A stretch of DNA of 64,000 nt from Bordetella genomosp. 12 (GTDB lineage Bacteria; Pseudomonadota; Gammaproteobacteria; Burkholderiales; Burkholderiaceae_B): contig NZ_NEVU01000003.1 of the NCBI RefSeq assembly GCF_002261355.1, forward strand, positions 682,001-746,000. The letters are read 5' to 3'. Position numbers and translations under genes: made by a program. The notes under the pieces are model-generated. The model saw nothing but the letters and a program-made list of their open reading frames with translations, searched no databases and was not told the origin of the DNA. Shown in pieces: positions 52,801 through 64,000 of the stretch (positions are counted from its first letter, which is position 1; each line of letters starts with the position of its first letter).

Positions 52801-52877
52801 TGGCGCGCCCGGCAGGATTCGAACCCACGACCCCTTGGTTCGTAGCCAAGTACTCTATCCAACTGAGCTACGGGCGC
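52801..52877 (-). tRNA. tRNA-Arg (anticodon ACG), copy 1
   Basis: 77 nt including an encoded CCA. The acceptor stem pairs GCGCCCG with CGGGCGC; the D arm (CTCAGTTGGATAGAG), anticodon stem TTGG/CCAA with loop CTACGAA (anticodon ACG) and T arm (GTGGGTTCGAATCC) are all canonical. A34 would be deaminated to inosine to read CGU/CGC/CGA. It is identical to the copies at 54594 and 58378. Confidence 0.96.
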
Positions 52878-54593: not shown

Positions 54594-54670
54594 TGGCGCG
54601 CCCGGCAGGATTCGAACCCACGACCCCTTGGTTCGTAGCCAAGTACTCTATCCAACTGAGCTACGGGCGC
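54594..54670 (-). tRNA. tRNA-Arg (anticodon ACG), copy 2
   Basis: 77 nt, base-for-base identical to copy 1 including the encoded CCA. Flanking sequence differs except for the similar terminator hairpin. Confidence 0.96.
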
Positions 54671-57490: not shown

Positions 57491-58311
57491 CGCTTACCGA
57501 ATTGCTGCTCGCGCCGCTGGCGTTCGACTTCATGCGCCAGGCGCTGCTGATCGCCGTGCTCGTGGCCGTGCCCACGGCACTGCTGTCCTGCTTTCTGGTC
57601 CTGAAGGGCTGGGCCCTGATGGGCGACGCCGTCTCACATGCGGTCTTTCCCGGCGTGGTGCTCGCCTACATGGCGGGCATCCCGCTCGAGCTCGGCGCCC
57701 TGGCCGCTGGCATGCTGTGCGCGGTGGGCACGGGCTATCTGCAGGCCAATAGCCGCCTGAAGCAGGAAACCGTGATGGGGGTGGTTTTCTCGGGGATGTT
57801 CGGCCTGGGCGTGGTGCTGCACACCAGCATACGCAGCGAAGTGCACCTGGATCACATTCTGTTTGGCGACATGCTGGGCGCGGCGTGGCCGGATCAACTG
57901 GAAAGCGGCGCCATTGCCCTGCTGGTCAGCGGCGTGATCGCCCTGAAATGGCGCGATCTGCTGCTGCAGGCTTTCGATCCCGTGCAGGCGCGCGCGCTGG
58001 GCTTGCGCACCGGTTGGCTGCACTATGGTTTGCTGGCCCTGCTGTCCCTATCCATCGTGGGCGGGCTCAAAGCGGTCGGCATCATCCTCATCATCGCCCT
58101 GCTGATCGCGCCCGGCGCGATCGCCCTGCTGCTGACCCGCAGCTTCGGCGCGATGCTGATCTGCGCCGTGACCATCGCCGTGGCGACCAGCCTGACCAGC
58201 GTGTACCTGAGCTTCTTTCTCGACAGTGCGCCCGCTCCCACGATCGTGGTGAGCTTGTCGGTGCTGTTCATCACCGCACTGGCCTTGCGCCGCTCCCGGC
58301 ATGCGTGCTGA
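57487..58311 (+). CDS. sitD: Mn/Fe ABC importer permease, SitD-like
   Basis: 274 residues from ATG 57487. It is a paralogue of sitC with LKGWALMGDAVSHAVFPGVV and LKAVGIILIIALLIAPGAIA. Two different permeases in one operon are typical of SitABCD/YfeABCD. It ends 30 bp before the shared hairpin of tRNA-Arg copy 3, which probably terminates this operon too. Confidence 0.92.
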   Translation: MTLTELLLAPLAFDFMRQALLIAVLVAVPTALLSCFLVLKGWALMGDAVSHAVFPGVVLAYMAGIPLELGALAAGMLCAVGTGYLQANSRLKQETVMGVVFSGMFGLGVVLHTSIRSEVHLDHILFGDMLGAAWPDQLESGAIALLVSGVIALKWRDLLLQAFDPVQARALGLRTGWLHYGLLALLSLSIVGGLKAVGIILIIALLIAPGAIALLLTRSFGAMLICAVTIAVATSLTSVYLSFFLDSAPAPTIVVSLSVLFITALALRRSRHAC

Positions 58312-58341
58312 CCGCCCCGGGCCGCAGCGGCCACCAAAGAG

Positions 58342-58370
58342 AAAGCCCGCAAGCATGGCTTGCGGGCTTT
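58342..58370. terminator. Bidirectional hairpin between sitD and tRNA-Arg copy 3
   Basis: Perfect 13-bp stem AAAGCCCGCAAGC / GCTTGCGGGCTTT with loop ATG. The T/A-rich ends make it usable in both directions: for tRNA copy 3 on the minus strand and sitABCD on the plus strand. Confidence 0.75.
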
Positions 58371-58377
58371 CTGGAAA

Positions 58378-58454
58378 TGGCGCGCCCGGCAGGATTCGAA
58401 CCCACGACCCCTTGGTTCGTAGCCAAGTACTCTATCCAACTGAGCTACGGGCGC
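58378..58454 (-). tRNA. tRNA-Arg (anticodon ACG), copy 3
   Basis: 77 nt, identical to copies 1 and 2 with encoded CCA. The 5' flank (GCTAAAGAGGC on the + strand) is shared with copy 1. Confidence 0.96.
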
Positions 58455-58540
58455 TAAAGAGGCGTGTTTATAGCATGCGCGGCGTGGTAGCACAAATCAT
58501 TCCCTTCCCTTCACCCCTTTTTCCTTAGGGTTTGCCCCAA

Positions 58541-58560
58541 ATGATACCGATAGGTATCAT
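58541..58560. promoter_or_regulatory. Palindromic operator before the PQQ dehydrogenase operon
   Basis: ATGATACC-GATA-GGTATCAT is a perfect 8-bp inverted repeat with a 4-nt spacer, 88 bp before the start. It has the size of a TetR operator and the operon contains a TetR gene, making it the likely autoregulatory site. Confidence 0.65.
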
Positions 58561-58647
58561 CTCGTAGGACTTTTCCTGAACACGCGGGCTGGCATGACAC
58601 CCGGCTCCGCGCACACCGTGTGCTGGTGAAAACATAGAGGTAGACAC

Positions 58648-61011
58648 ATGTCCCCCAACCCAAATCGCCCACCCTGGTACGTGATGCTGTTCGGCATCGT
58701 GCTGGCGCTCATCGGCCTGGCGCTTGCCATCGGCGGCGCCCGTCTGGTCAGCCTCAGCGGCTCCTGGTATTACCTCATCGCCGGCCTGGGCATGCTGGCC
58801 TCCGGCATTCTCCTGATGCGCCGCCGCACCGCGGGCGCCTGGCTCTACACCCTCGTCTTCGTCGCCACGGTCATCTGGTCGTTCTGGGAAGTCGGCACCG
58901 ATTTCTGGCAACTGGTGCCGCGCCTGATCGGCCCCATCGTGCTGGCGCTGTTCACGCTGCTGATCTGGCCCGCGCTGCATGATGACGGCACCCGCAGCCG
59001 CGTGCGCCGCAACGCCTATCCGCTGGCCGGTGTCGCCTTGCTGGCACTGATCGGCTTTGGCGTCGGCATGTTCCGTCCGCAAGGCGTCATCCGCACCGAA
59101 GCCACCGCGCAGCAAGCGGCCGTGCCCGCCACGCCCCAGCCGGTTTCCGACTGGCAATACTACGGGCGCACGCCTTCGGGCACCCGCTATGCCCCGCTCA
59201 CGCAGATCGACCCCAAAAACGTCGACAAGCTGGAAGTGGCCTGGACCTTCCGCACCGGCGACGTCGCCAGCACGGGCGCCGAAAACCAGAACACCCCCAT
59301 CCAGATCGGCGACACGGTGTACGTCTGCACGCCGCACAACAAGGTCTTTGCGCTGGACGCCGATACCGGCAAAGAGCGCTGGCGCTTTGATCCCGAGGCG
59401 TCCTCGCCCGTGTGGCAGCGCTGCCGTGGCGTGGGTTACTACGAAACCGCCGCCGCGCCCGCAGCCGGCGAAGCCCAACCCGCCGCATGCCGCAAGCGCA
59501 TCATCCTGAGCACCATCGATTCGCGCCTGATCGCTCTGGATGCCGAGACGGGCAAACCGTGCGAAGATTTTGGTACGCATGGCGCCGTGGATCTCAAGCA
59601 AGGCATGGGCGAGATCAAGCCGGGTTACTACTTCCAGACCTCGGCGCCGACCGTCGTGCGCAACATGATCGTGATCGGCGGTTGGGTGTTCGACAACCGC
59701 GCCATCGACGAGCCCTCGGGCGCCGTGCGCGCGTTCAATGCCGACACCGGCGAACTGACGTGGGCTTGGGACATGGCGGATCCGTCCATCACCGGCCTGC
59801 CGCCCGAAGGCAAGACCTACACGCGGGGCACTCCCAATGTATGGTCCACGCCGGCCTTCGACGACAAGCTGGGCCTGCTCTACCTGCCCACCGGCAATTC
59901 GCCGCCTGACTTCTGGGGCGCGCATCGCAGCAAGGCCGCCGAGAAGTTCGCCTCCTCCGTGGTTGCCCTGGACATCGCCACCGGCCGCGAACGCTGGGTT
60001 TTCCAGACCGTCCATCATGACCTCTGGGACTACGACGTCGCTTCGCAACCCGCGCTCTACGACATCCCCGACGGCAAAGGTGGCATGCAGCATGGCCTGA
60101 TCCAGGTCACCAAGCGCGGCCAGATCTTCCTGCTTGACCGCGCCAACGGCCAGCCGCTTGCCGAGGTCAAGGAACAACCGGTGCCGCAGGGTGCGCAAGA
60201 AGGCGATTGGACGTCGCCGACCCAGCCCTATTCGGTGGGCATGCCCTCGATCGGCACGGAACCGCTGTCCGAAGCCAAGATGTGGGGCGCGACCTTCTTC
60301 GATCAGCTCTGGTGCCGGATCGAATTCAAGAAGATGCGCTATGAAGGCGAGTTCACCCCGCCCTCCACGCATCGCACGCTCCAGTACCCGGGCTACTACG
60401 GTGGCATGAACTGGGGCAGCGCCTCCGTGGACGAAGCGCGCGGTTACCTCATCGTCAACGACATCCGCATGCCGCAATGGATTCAGTTGATCCCGCGCTC
60501 GGAAGCCGACAAGGAAGGCGCCGCCGGCGTGCATGACGGCTTCGCGCCGCAAACCGGTACGCCTTATGGCGTTTCCAAGAACGGCTTCATGTCGCCCCTG
60601 GGCGTGCCTTGCCATGCGCCGCCCTACGGCACGCTGTCGGCCATCAACCTGAAGACCCGCCAACTGATGTGGCAAGTGCCCATGAGCACGCTGCAGGACA
60701 CCGGCCCCCTGGGCATGAAAACGGGCCTGCAGATCCCCATCGGCATGCCCACGCTGGGCGGCCCGCTGACCACCGCTTCCGGCCTGGTGTTCTATGCCGG
60801 CACGCAGGATTACTACCTGCGCGCCATGGACACCGCCTCGGGCAAGGAGCTCTGGAAGGCCCGCCTGCCGGTCGGCGCGCAAGCCACGCCGATGAGCTTT
60901 GTCTCGCCCAAGAGCGGCCGTCAGTTTGTCGTGTTGTCGGTCGGCGGCGCACGCCAATCCCCGGATCGTGGCGATTACGTGATCGCCTACGCGCTGCCCG
61001 GCAAGCCATGA
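58648..61011 (+). CDS. gcd: Membrane-bound PQQ-dependent glucose/quinate-type dehydrogenase
   Basis: 787 residues. The first 140 or so carry five transmembrane helices, the quinone-reducing anchor of this family. The periplasmic part is an eight-bladed propeller of PQQ enzyme repeats with DWQYYGRTPSGTRYAPLTQI, repeated LDADTGKERWRF-like blades, QTVHHDLWDYDVASQPALYD and GPLTTASGLVFYAGTQDYYL near the end. Substrates of the family include glucose, quinate and shikimate; these are not distinguished here. It oxidises them in the periplasm and reduces ubiquinone. It needs PQQ, but no pqq synthesis gene is in the window. TetR and a PqqU-like receptor follow within the same operon. Confidence 0.92.
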   Translation: MSPNPNRPPWYVMLFGIVLALIGLALAIGGARLVSLSGSWYYLIAGLGMLASGILLMRRRTAGAWLYTLVFVATVIWSFWEVGTDFWQLVPRLIGPIVLALFTLLIWPALHDDGTRSRVRRNAYPLAGVALLALIGFGVGMFRPQGVIRTEATAQQAAVPATPQPVSDWQYYGRTPSGTRYAPLTQIDPKNVDKLEVAWTFRTGDVASTGAENQNTPIQIGDTVYVCTPHNKVFALDADTGKERWRFDPEASSPVWQRCRGVGYYETAAAPAAGEAQPAACRKRIILSTIDSRLIALDAETGKPCEDFGTHGAVDLKQGMGEIKPGYYFQTSAPTVVRNMIVIGGWVFDNRAIDEPSGAVRAFNADTGELTWAWDMADPSITGLPPEGKTYTRGTPNVWSTPAFDDKLGLLYLPTGNSPPDFWGAHRSKAAEKFASSVVALDIATGRERWVFQTVHHDLWDYDVASQPALYDIPDGKGGMQHGLIQVTKRGQIFLLDRANGQPLAEVKEQPVPQGAQEGDWTSPTQPYSVGMPSIGTEPLSEAKMWGATFFDQLWCRIEFKKMRYEGEFTPPSTHRTLQYPGYYGGMNWGSASVDEARGYLIVNDIRMPQWIQLIPRSEADKEGAAGVHDGFAPQTGTPYGVSKNGFMSPLGVPCHAPPYGTLSAINLKTRQLMWQVPMSTLQDTGPLGMKTGLQIPIGMPTLGGPLTTASGLVFYAGTQDYYLRAMDTASGKELWKARLPVGAQATPMSFVSPKSGRQFVVLSVGGARQSPDRGDYVIAYALPGKP

Positions 61012-61024
61012 GACTGAGCTGGCT

Positions 61025-61687
61025 ATGAGCCGCCCGGACCCGACCGCCCCTCTGACGACTCGCCAGCCGGGCGGCCGGGTCACGCGGCGCGGCCGCGATC
61101 GCAGCGAACGATTGCTGCGCGTGGCCGCCGATCTCTTCCTTGAACGCGGTTACGACAACGTCACGCTGGACGAGATCGTGGCTCAGGCCGGCGGCTCGAA
61201 AACCAATATCTACCGCTATTACGGCAGCAAGCAAGGATTTTTCTGCCGGGTGGTGGAGTATCTCTGCGATGATTTCCTGGCCGCCCTGTCTGACCTCGAT
61301 GTCCAGACAGGCGGCCTGGAGGGCGCATTGAGCCGTCTGGCTCGCGCCTTGATCCATGCCATGCTGAACCCGCGCCAGGTCGCCTTCTACCGCATGGTGG
61401 TGGCGACCTCGGCTCGCTTGCCGGAGGTCGGCCGCGCCTGGTTCGCCCACGGTCCCGTCGCCTCGCGCGCAGCGTTTACCCGCTTGCTCCAGGTCCAGAT
61501 CGATCTGGGCACGATTCATCCCGACACACGCATCGACGAAGTCGCCACCCAGTTGCACGGGGCGCTCGTCTATGACTTTTTCACCCGCACCGTCATGCTG
61601 GGCGCGCATCTGGACAGCGCGGCCATCGACACGGCCACCGAGGCCCTGGTGCGCAGCGCCAGGCGCTGGCTCTCCATCGAGGCTTAG
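61025..61687 (+). CDS. TetR-family regulator of the PQQ dehydrogenase operon
   Basis: 220 residues with an N-terminal basic tail, HTH at about 45-70 (LDEIVAQAGGSKTNIYRYYG) and a ligand domain with a TetR_C fold pattern (AFYRMVVATSARLPEVGRAW). It starts 13 bp after gcd and its stop overlaps the receptor start by 1 bp. The likely target is the palindrome before gcd. The inducer could be PQQ, a sugar or a quinate-like compound; nothing in the sequence decides. Confidence 0.88.
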   Translation: MSRPDPTAPLTTRQPGGRVTRRGRDRSERLLRVAADLFLERGYDNVTLDEIVAQAGGSKTNIYRYYGSKQGFFCRVVEYLCDDFLAALSDLDVQTGGLEGALSRLARALIHAMLNPRQVAFYRMVVATSARLPEVGRAWFAHGPVASRAAFTRLLQVQIDLGTIHPDTRIDEVATQLHGALVYDFFTRTVMLGAHLDSAAIDTATEALVRSARRWLSIEA

Positions 61688-63780
61688 TGAACCCTTTCCG
61701 ACCTCTCTCGCGGCTGGCCTTGCTGCTGCTGCCCCTGCCCGCGCTGGCGCAGACGCCCACGCTCGCCCCCATCATCGTCACGGGCACCCGCAACGGCACA
61801 TCGGTGCTGGACACCCCGGCGTCGGTGGATGTCATCGATGGCGCCACGCTGCGGGCCAACGCCCTGCAGATCAATCTCTCGGAAAACCTCAGCGCAGTGC
61901 CCGGGCTGCAAATACAGAATCGCCAGAACTTCGCGCAGGATCTGCAACTGTCCATCCGCGGCTTTGGCGCACGCTCGACCTTCGGCGTGCGCGGCGTGCG
62001 GATTTATGTCGACGGCATACCGGCGACCATGCCCGATGGGCAGGGGCAGACCTCCAACATCGACATCGGCTCGGCCGACCGGGTCGAGGTCCTGCGCGGG
62101 CCCTACTCGGCGCTGTATGGAAACTCGTCCGGCGGCGTCGTGCAGGTGTTTACCGAAGATGGCGCCCGTCCGCCGCGCGTGCAAGCCAGCATGGCCGCGG
62201 GCAGCTTCGGCACCTTTCGCTATGGCGTGCAGGCCAGCGGCGCCAGCGGCACCGGCGTGGGCGACCTGGAGTATGTGGTGGGCCTGAACCGCTTCACCAG
62301 CGACGGCTATCGCGACCACAGCGGCGCGCGCAAAAATCTGGCCAACGCCAAGCTGGGTCTGCAACTCGATGACGACAGCCGGCTGACGCTGGTGCTCAAT
62401 CGCGTCGACCTCAAAGCCCAGGATCCCATGGGCCTGACGCGAGCTGAATTCGACGACGATCCGCGTGCCGCCTCGCCCGCGGCGCAACGTTTCAACACCC
62501 GCAAGACGGTGCAACAGACGCAAGGCGGCCTGGTGTACGAGCGCCAGGTCGATGCCGACAATGCCTTGCGCGTCATGGTGTATTACGGACAACGCGAGAC
62601 CTGGCAGTACCAGAGCATCCCCGTGGCCGTGCAGCGCCCGCCTGCGCAGTCGGGCGGCGTCATCGGCCTGCGGCGTGACTACGGCGGCGCCGACGTGCGC
62701 TGGACCTCTCATCTGACCCTGGCCGGCCAGCCCCTGACCGTGGTGGGCGGACTGGCCTACGACAGCCTGCGCGAGATCCGCAAGGGCTATGAAAACTTCA
62801 CCCAGGGCGGCGCCACCCTGGGCGTCAAGGGCGCGCTGCGCCGCGACGAGACCAATGAGGTGTACAACCTCGACCCCTACCTGCAGACGTCGTGGGAATT
62901 CCTGCCGCGCTGGACGCTGGACACCGGCCTGCGCTATAGCAGCGTGAACTTTGATTCGCGCGATCACTACATCGTGGCGGGCAACGGCGACGACAGCGGC
63001 GGCGCACGCTACCGGCGAGCGCTGCCCGTGGCGGCCCTGCGCTATGCGCTGGATGAAGACAGCAATGTCTATGTGTCGTACGGCAAGGGTTTCGAAACGC
63101 CCACCATGAACGAAATCTCCTATCGTCCCGATGGGCAGCCAGGCCTGAACTTCGGCCTGCAGCCCTCGGTCAGCACCAATCTGGAAGCCGGCATCAAGCG
63201 CCGCCTGGCAGGTGGGCTGGCGACGGCGGCGGTTTTTCATACCCGCACGGAAAACGAGATCGTGTCCGCAGGCAGCATCGACGGACGCAGCAGTTTTCGC
63301 AATGGCGGCCGCACCCGCCGCGACGGCGTCGAGCTGGCTTGGGATGGCGAGTTCGGCACGCATTGGCGCTCACGCCTGGCCTATACCTACATCAATGCGC
63401 GCTATCGCGACAATGTAGCCGGCACGGGCATCGAGGCTGGCAACCAGATCCCCGGCGTGGCACGCCAGGCCCTCTACGCCGCCCTGGCCTGGGCGCCGCC
63501 GCAAGGATGGCAGGCCGGCATCGAAGGCCGTTATCTGGACAAACTGTACGTGGACGACGCCAACAGCGACGCCGCAGCGGGCTATGTCGTGGCGGCGCTG
63601 TCGACCGGCTATATCTGGAAGAACGGCCCCTGGACCTGGAGCGCTTACGCCCGCGTGGACAATCTATTTGACCGCCGCTATGCCGGCTCGGTCATCGTCA
63701 ACGAAGGCAATGGCCGGTATTTCGAGCCGGCGCCCGGCCGCAACTGGAACGCCGGCCTCACGGTCGCCTACCGCTTCTGA
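61687..63780 (+). CDS. pqqU: TonB-dependent receptor, PqqU/YncD-like
   Basis: 697 residues from GTG 61687. A signal peptide covers about 1-22. The TonB box region (APIIVTGTR) is followed by the plug domain with LSIRGFGARSTFGVRGVRIY, then DGIPATMPDGQGQTSNIDIG and VLRGPYSALYGNSSGGVV. The barrel ends in the aromatic AYRF. These stretches are strikingly similar to E. coli YncD, renamed PqqU after it was shown to import PQQ (recalled, not searched). Being in one operon with a PQQ-dependent dehydrogenase, it very probably supplies the cofactor. A siderophore role is the main alternative. Confidence 0.88.
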   Translation: MNPFRPLSRLALLLLPLPALAQTPTLAPIIVTGTRNGTSVLDTPASVDVIDGATLRANALQINLSENLSAVPGLQIQNRQNFAQDLQLSIRGFGARSTFGVRGVRIYVDGIPATMPDGQGQTSNIDIGSADRVEVLRGPYSALYGNSSGGVVQVFTEDGARPPRVQASMAAGSFGTFRYGVQASGASGTGVGDLEYVVGLNRFTSDGYRDHSGARKNLANAKLGLQLDDDSRLTLVLNRVDLKAQDPMGLTRAEFDDDPRAASPAAQRFNTRKTVQQTQGGLVYERQVDADNALRVMVYYGQRETWQYQSIPVAVQRPPAQSGGVIGLRRDYGGADVRWTSHLTLAGQPLTVVGGLAYDSLREIRKGYENFTQGGATLGVKGALRRDETNEVYNLDPYLQTSWEFLPRWTLDTGLRYSSVNFDSRDHYIVAGNGDDSGGARYRRALPVAALRYALDEDSNVYVSYGKGFETPTMNEISYRPDGQPGLNFGLQPSVSTNLEAGIKRRLAGGLATAAVFHTRTENEIVSAGSIDGRSSFRNGGRTRRDGVELAWDGEFGTHWRSRLAYTYINARYRDNVAGTGIEAGNQIPGVARQALYAALAWAPPQGWQAGIEGRYLDKLYVDDANSDAAAGYVVAALSTGYIWKNGPWTWSAYARVDNLFDRRYAGSVIVNEGNGRYFEPAPGRNWNAGLTVAYRF

Positions 63781-63795
63781 GCGGCGCGGCGCCGT

Positions 63796-64000
63796 TCAAT
63801 CGGCAAAACGCAGCCGCGCGAAGCTGGCGATGCTGGCCAGCGCGGCAAAGATCACGCCCAGCCACAAGGCCCAGGCCGTGCCTCCCACGCCCGCCATGTG
63901 CAGGCAGGCCGCCACCAGCGCCGCGCCCGAAGACTGGCCCAGCAAGCGCACCGTACCCACCATCCCGCTGGCCCCGCCCGCCCTGCCGGGCGGGGCGGCG
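63796..64000 (-). CDS. MFS transporter, C-terminal fragment
   Basis: The last 67 codons of a minus-strand gene cut by the window edge. Reading back from TGA 63798-63796 gives a hydrophobic sequence with RAGGASGMVGTVRLLGQSSG, a loop-helix pattern seen near the C-terminus of drug:H+ antiporters of the major facilitator superfamily, followed by a last membrane helix and FARLRFAD. The class is likely; subfamily and substrate are not determinable. Confidence 0.7.
   Translation of the reverse strand, partial: AAPPGRAGGASGMVGTVRLLGQSSGAALVAACLHMAGVGGTAWALWLGVIFAALASIASFARLRFAD

Follow-up and report, generated by a model that had tools for sequence, protein, structure and literature searches.

What ties together the three genes found in a 64,000-nucleotide (nt) stretch of Bordetella genomosp. 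12 (contig NZ_NEVU01000003.1; this whole stretch is called the window here), which encode a dehydrogenase dependent on pyrroloquinoline quinone (PQQ), a TetR-family regulator and a TonB-dependent receptor? PqqU was only recently shown to be a receptor through which PQQ is imported, and little mapping has been done of the enzymes to which this import is linked. The analysis presented here indicates that the locus is probably a PQQ-scavenging quinoprotein operon under TetR control.

All three genes were on the plus strand. The open reading frame of the dehydrogenase (58648-61011; 787 amino acids, ATG start) was followed after 13 nt by that of the TetR regulator (61025-61687; 220 amino acids), and the receptor frame (61687-63780; 697 amino acids, GTG start) began on the final base of the stop codon of TetR, with this one base in common. 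The layout described in the initial annotation, including the 13-nt gap, the one-base overlap and a perfect palindrome, was fully borne out by the open reading frame and repeat calls, and the three genes would presumably be co-transcribed. The full operon was present in 4 of 15 same-genus genomes (the window genome G000, and G082, G083 and G085), and, beyond the window genome, the gene trio with identical repeat arms was found in B. hinzii, B. pseudohinzii and G083. A pqqU gene was detected in 10 of the 15 genomes, although the match in G084 covered only residues 13-377 of 697. The nearest named relatives of the receptor were those of B. hinzii and B. pseudohinzii (87-88% identical).

The receptor was assigned to PqqU, the TonB-dependent importer of PQQ, by its matches in the PDB, its contact residues and its clade. 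Its best solved structures were those of YncD/PqqU (6v81 and 9c4o, approximately 800 bits), and 364 of the 685 residues aligned with E. coli PqqU/YncD were identical (53%). For the plug stretch this value was 89 of 126 (71%); the earlier statement that the plug segments are nearly the same as those of YncD/PqqU therefore holds for the plug, but does not extend to the whole receptor. All 11 named PQQ contacts that were mapped were kept (the main text of Munder et al. 2025, PMC12124388, counts 12), 10 of them as identical residues and Y99 as phenylalanine. The same main text accepts this change; the signature given there is Y/F/W99, R304 and R365. The receptor carries this signature as F99, R303 and R365 (E. 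coli Y99, R304 and R365), together with identical equivalents of K274, R536, Q84, Q121, Q308, Q310, N477 and Y481. As a control, 8 of the 45 other TonB receptors in this genome were aligned, and none had the set Y/F/W99-R304-R365. In a tree of 35 receptors, the 22 chosen PqqU sequences formed one group against 12 others (support 100/100; one row was ungrouped), which included E. coli FhuA, FepA, CirA and BtuB and eight receptors of the window genome. The window receptor was placed in one clade with E. coli PqqU.

A receptor with a cargo different from PQQ, such as a siderophore, would be in agreement with the score of 988.2 bits against the PqqU model NF041535, which is below the cut-off of 1200, and with the 209 bits obtained for the next-best family, a siderophore-receptor model (cut-off 223.5, also not reached). 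NF041535 was nevertheless the best family by far, and its cut-off is the NCBI equivalog naming threshold and not a biological trait, the published definition being the residue signature. The complete set of PQQ contacts, the clade with E. coli PqqU from which all the receptors named above are excluded, and the neighbouring gene for a PQQ enzyme make such a non-PQQ receptor extremely improbable. A siderophore or B12 receptor was rejected on the basis of the residue signature and the tree, in which no grouping with a siderophore family was seen. Judged by its sequence the receptor is PqqU, as the initial annotation had proposed from its PqqU-like features, and it would take up PQQ.

The whole genome was searched for PQQ synthesis genes with models of PqqB, PqqC and PqqE (PqqA, PqqD and PqqF were not in the search), and none was found above cut-off, PqqC alone having a positive control. 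The PqqB and PqqC models gave no match at E<=0.001 in this assembly, which is 99.99% complete, and the best PqqE match reached 56 bits against a cut-off of 381. The control for PqqC was a match in 55 of 268 genomes of the window's family, above cut-off in 54. A PqqC match was also absent in the other three genomes with the operon. From this gene content, and in keeping with the scavenging that had been suggested, the bacterium seems unable to make PQQ.

The enzyme that the imported PQQ would serve belongs to the glucose/quinate/shikimate family of membrane-bound PQQ-dependent dehydrogenases. It was the sole match in the genome above the cut-off of TIGR03074 (1077 bits, cut-off 833), and the residues matching W404, D466, K493, N607 and D730 of E. 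coli Gcd, which we take to be PQQ-binding or catalytic residues, were kept. A standard glucose dehydrogenase (Gcd) of the E. coli kind, as implied by the gcd label in the initial annotation, would share this family, and the identity to E. coli Gcd (346 of 772 residues) was nearly as high as that to the QuiA-type enzyme of A. baumannii (362 of 783). His262 of Gcd has a role in glucose binding. The QHVTCRG stretch that contains it was replaced in the window enzyme by WQRCRG (within VWQRCRGV), in a loop shorter by two residues, and the enzyme of the A. baumannii pca-qui cluster likewise has a WxRCRG loop in place of this motif. A previous reading of position 262 as Arg or Trp was abandoned in favour of a two-residue deletion in the better alignment. 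When 99 of the 100 dehydrogenase matches in the family genomes were sorted by this motif (G112:C2 was left out, and R was also allowed in place of W), 50 were His-type, 32 were WxRCRG-type and 17 were other. Three short rows were removed, and in the resulting tree of 106 proteins one branch with a support of 100 split 51 His-type from 40 WxRCRG-type proteins, the 15 rows of neither type not being counted in the split. The window dehydrogenase was on the WxRCRG side, with the A. baumannii enzyme and a Klebsiella enzyme encoded close to pcaHG. Gcd identity was rejected on the motif and the tree, which leave it very unlikely, and the gcd label was corrected: the enzyme is very probably not Gcd and lies on the QuiA side of the family. 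Within the WxRCRG half, the window subclade was separate from the A. baumannii and Klebsiella enzymes, and quinate or shikimate is therefore a lead and not a demonstration. The predicted substrate is probably a cyclic polyol acid resembling quinate or shikimate, and not glucose.

A second protein of the TIGR03074 family was present in the same genome (G000:C3:640399-642453; L181:5358-7460), with 700 amino acids and 543 bits (cut-off 833). It had no matches to W404, D466, K493, N607 and D730 of E. coli Gcd, and is perhaps an 'empty' quinoprotein, devoid of PQQ.

The association between the dehydrogenase and pqqU was then examined in the 268 genomes of the window's family (presumably Alcaligenaceae, judging by kinship), the thresholds being E<=1e-150 for both of these genes and E<=1e-30 for PqqC. 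A pqqU gene was found in 103 genomes, the dehydrogenase family in 68 and PqqC in 55. Both pqqU and the dehydrogenase were present in 52 genomes, pqqU only in 51, the dehydrogenase only in 16 and neither in 149 (Fisher p 1.4e-13, not corrected for relatedness). The two genes were 712 bp or less apart in 16 of the 52 genomes with both, representing eight genera and four gene orders (dehydrogenase then pqqU in six, pqqU then dehydrogenase in six, convergent in three and divergent in one), and PqqC was also present in 6 of these 16. Linkage differed between the types of enzyme: among pqqU-bearing genomes it was observed for 13 of 25 WxRCRG-type genes, 3 of 40 His-type genes and none of 13 others (WxRCRG versus His-type, Fisher p 8.5e-5, again not corrected for relatedness). 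The recurrence of the pair in several independent gene orders indicates a functional bond between the dehydrogenase and pqqU, and supports the coupling of enzyme and importer proposed from the window alone.

Two further receptor observations were made. In one genus (g2), 38 of 41 pqqU-bearing genomes lacked a TIGR03074 dehydrogenase at the threshold used, in a search that covered this quinoprotein family alone. On the Novosphingobium plasmid pHR1a (L276:1-3375), a TonB receptor gene lay 3 nt before the gene of another PQQ dehydrogenase on the same strand. This receptor was not PqqU-like (22 bits to NF041535), and pHR1a possibly carries a different receptor-dehydrogenase pair.

Upstream of the three genes, the perfect inverted repeat ATGATACC-GATA-GGTATCAT (58541-58560) is a probable operator. 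A perfect repeat with 8-bp arms and a spacer of 0-8 occurred in 56 of 5000 shuffles of 58491-58647. In the four genomes with the operon, 16 of 16 arm bases were invariant, compared to 43 of 87 bases on the downstream side and 8 of 41 on the upstream side, where an insertion in G083 depresses the value; the spacer varied. A sigma-70-like promoter, TTGCCC-17-TATCAT, was detected on the plus strand (58532-58560), with its -10 element inside the right arm of the palindrome. It was the only promoter-like match in 58300-64000, where shuffles averaged 0.8, so that it is weak when taken alone; five of the six -35 bases and the whole -10 element were invariant in the four genomes. When up to two mismatches were allowed, the palindrome had a single location in each of the four genomes with the operon and none in two same-genus genomes lacking it. 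A palindrome that is conserved, specific to the operon and placed over a promoter-like site fits a local autorepressor, and the TetR protein would bind it and repress the operon. The palindrome might instead be a Fur-type box, with the operon under iron control like many TonB receptors and the TetR acting elsewhere. It matched 13 of 19 bases of the Fur-box consensus, and about 1% of shuffles were as good. The conserved ATGATACC-N4-GGTATCAT, however, has CC and GG beside the spacer, for which the Fur consensus has no counterpart, the element did not recur elsewhere in the six genomes searched, and the local TetR gene is a simpler owner. Control by Fur is for these reasons considered unlikely, and the palindrome is regarded as a putative TetR operator.

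The TetR regulator (61025-61687, plus strand) is a probable autorepressor, with a TetR_N domain (PF00440, 50 bits, cut-off 24) and an AefR-like TetR_C_7 domain (PF14246, also above its cut-off). At E<=1e-30, this protein was found in only 6 of the 268 family genomes, namely the four with the operon and two others, with 37-39% identity in the latter. The nearest homologue elsewhere in the family (39%, L180:5731-8075) was encoded between genes for an EamA-type transporter and an APH-type phosphotransferase. On a Rhizobium plasmid, a gene for a 56%-identical dehydrogenase was followed after 8 nt by one for a 34%-identical TetR, and no PqqU match was found in this stretch at E 1e-3. A dehydrogenase-TetR pair thus exists outside Bordetella.

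It had been suggested that the TetR could be a PQQ sensor, switching the operon according to cofactor supply. The position of its gene inside the operon and the conserved palindrome over the promoter would suit such a role, which would also make physiological sense. Nothing in the results points to PQQ as the ligand, however, and the suggestion was not supported. The dehydrogenase requires PQQ only in the periplasm, to which a cytoplasmic sensor has no obvious access, and we know of no inner-membrane importer of PQQ. In addition, a TetR match was absent from the genomes of 12 of the 16 linked loci. The best solved chain by sequence was NalC (8ke8, 88 bits). According to PMC3290565, NalC binds an inverted repeat overlapping a promoter and is modulated by pentachlorophenol, which the authors regard as a mimic of a phenolic effector. 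No PQQ-binding TetR was reported in the available part of a chemical-proteomics study (PMC13088180). A PQQ sensor is consequently judged improbable. The wider proposal that the TetR is a dedicated sensor of either PQQ or a plant- or host-derived cyclic acid, co-inducing a quinoprotein apoenzyme and the importer of its cofactor, is somewhat less so, and is still doubtful.

The following mechanism is proposed. PQQ produced by other microbes would cross the outer membrane through PqqU, and this PQQ would complete the membrane-bound dehydrogenase in the periplasm. The enzyme would oxidise a periplasmic substrate, probably a cyclic polyol acid of the type named above rather than glucose, and its electrons should go to ubiquinone, the presumed acceptor. 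The TetR, on the palindrome over the promoter, would keep all three genes down until freed by a cytoplasmic ligand, for which a substrate- or product-derived or phenolic compound seems more likely than PQQ. Enzyme and cofactor supply would then be switched on together in an apparent non-maker of PQQ.

Several results weigh against this reading. Besides the receptor score below the NF041535 cut-off and the partial match to a Fur box, described above, the PqqB and PqqE models were above cut-off in none of 14 control genomes, and therefore lack a positive control. The link between importer and enzyme is not strict in either direction. Of the 103 genomes with pqqU, 51 had no TIGR03074 dehydrogenase at the survey threshold, and 7 of the 32 WxRCRG-type genes were in genomes without a pqqU match, six of them also without a PqqC match. 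Five of these seven (L267-L271, genus g31) are, outside the genus of the window, the closest relatives of its enzyme, and these were also without PqqC. The QuiA-side type of enzyme can therefore occur where no importer is detected. The 12 remaining linked loci are in genomes that gave no TetR match at E<=1e-30, which indicates that the coupling does not generally include the TetR. As regards the substrate, PcaH was not above cut-off in the window genome (67.6 bits, cut-off 296.4) and an Acinetobacter-type QuiC was not found there, other QuiC types and ring-cleavage routes not having been searched; the same searches found PcaH above cut-off in 3 of 9 genomes and QuiC in 1 of 9. The result for the window genome speaks against complete degradation of quinate along that route, and the quinate pathway was dropped as proof of the substrate.

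With these points taken into account, the operon is real and functionally linked, and is a new arrangement of known parts; its regulation and its substrate are unproven. By gene order, PqqU is repeatedly connected with a single dehydrogenase subtype, in several arrangements of the two genes, and the probable dedicated repressor present in one lineage offers a handle on the regulation of cofactor scavenging. The results suggest that the enzymes supplied by PqqU need not be limited to glucose dehydrogenase, and that this also applies to Bordetella genomes in which PqqC had no match. Were the TetR a dedicated sensor as set out above, it would be the first switch known to us that ties the demand of an enzyme to the scavenging of a publicly shared redox cofactor, and would be one operating in animal-dwelling bacteria.

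Ahead of the palindrome, a tRNA-Arg gene (58378-58454, minus strand) was present, and a search for RNA elements upstream of the operon found nothing besides this tRNA. It is the last of three tRNA-Arg (acg) genes on the minus strand (52801-52877, 54594-54670 and 58378-58454), the flanks of which are alike enough to cross-match in related genomes. In G083 (L166:2685-5225), a 2.5-kb segment carrying transposase genes of the ISL3 and IS3 types, the ISL3 matches being in two separate frames, lay just upstream of the operon promoter, which was spared. Relocation of the operon in this genome was considered and dropped, as both flanks were conserved, with the 2.5-kb insertion between the tRNA side and the promoter.

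The dehydrogenase-TetR-pqqU arrangement was not found in the literature search, which did not cover Hantke and Friz 2022 or the supplements of Munder et al. 2025; the earlier view that it is undescribed stands as far as this search reached. It was absent from the available parts of PMC12124388, PMC11658791 and PMC3669393, the last of which treats PQQ genes and TonB receptors apart. The available parts of Munder et al. 2025 (PMC12124388) describe pqqU as syntenic with PQQ synthesis genes in four Burkholderiales genomes and report no synteny with a dehydrogenase, and neither 'TetR' nor 'Bordetella' occurs in the main text. The same literature search found nothing on the operon, on its TetR or on a Bordetella quinate or glucose dehydrogenase.

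Among known systems, the NalC/AefR-type repressors resemble the window TetR in the AefR-like C-terminal domain, in the match to NalC 8ke8 and, as NalC too binds such an element, in an inverted repeat over a promoter, but the target genes differ. E. coli Gcd shares with the window enzyme the family TIGR03074 and the five residues W404, D466, K493, N607 and D730, whereas the window enzyme lacks the His262 loop and is not in the same clade. QuiA of Acinetobacter (pca-qui) is in the same half of the tree and has the same WxRCRG motif. In A. baumannii, this enzyme is encoded behind pcaK, pcaH, pcaG, a dehydroquinate dehydratase gene, a NosD-like gene and a porin gene, a gene order to which the names QuiB, QuiC, QuiX and QuiA apply; the window enzyme is instead encoded with pqqU and a TetR gene, in a genome with no pcaH above cut-off and no Acinetobacter-type quiC. 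The closest parallel to the receptor is E. coli PqqU (YncD), also a TonB receptor with the same PQQ contacts, which serves a membrane PQQ dehydrogenase in a host without detectable PQQ synthesis. In E. coli, however, pqqU is beside mcbR and yncE with gcd far away, whereas in the window it shares one operon with a dehydrogenase of another subtype and a TetR gene.

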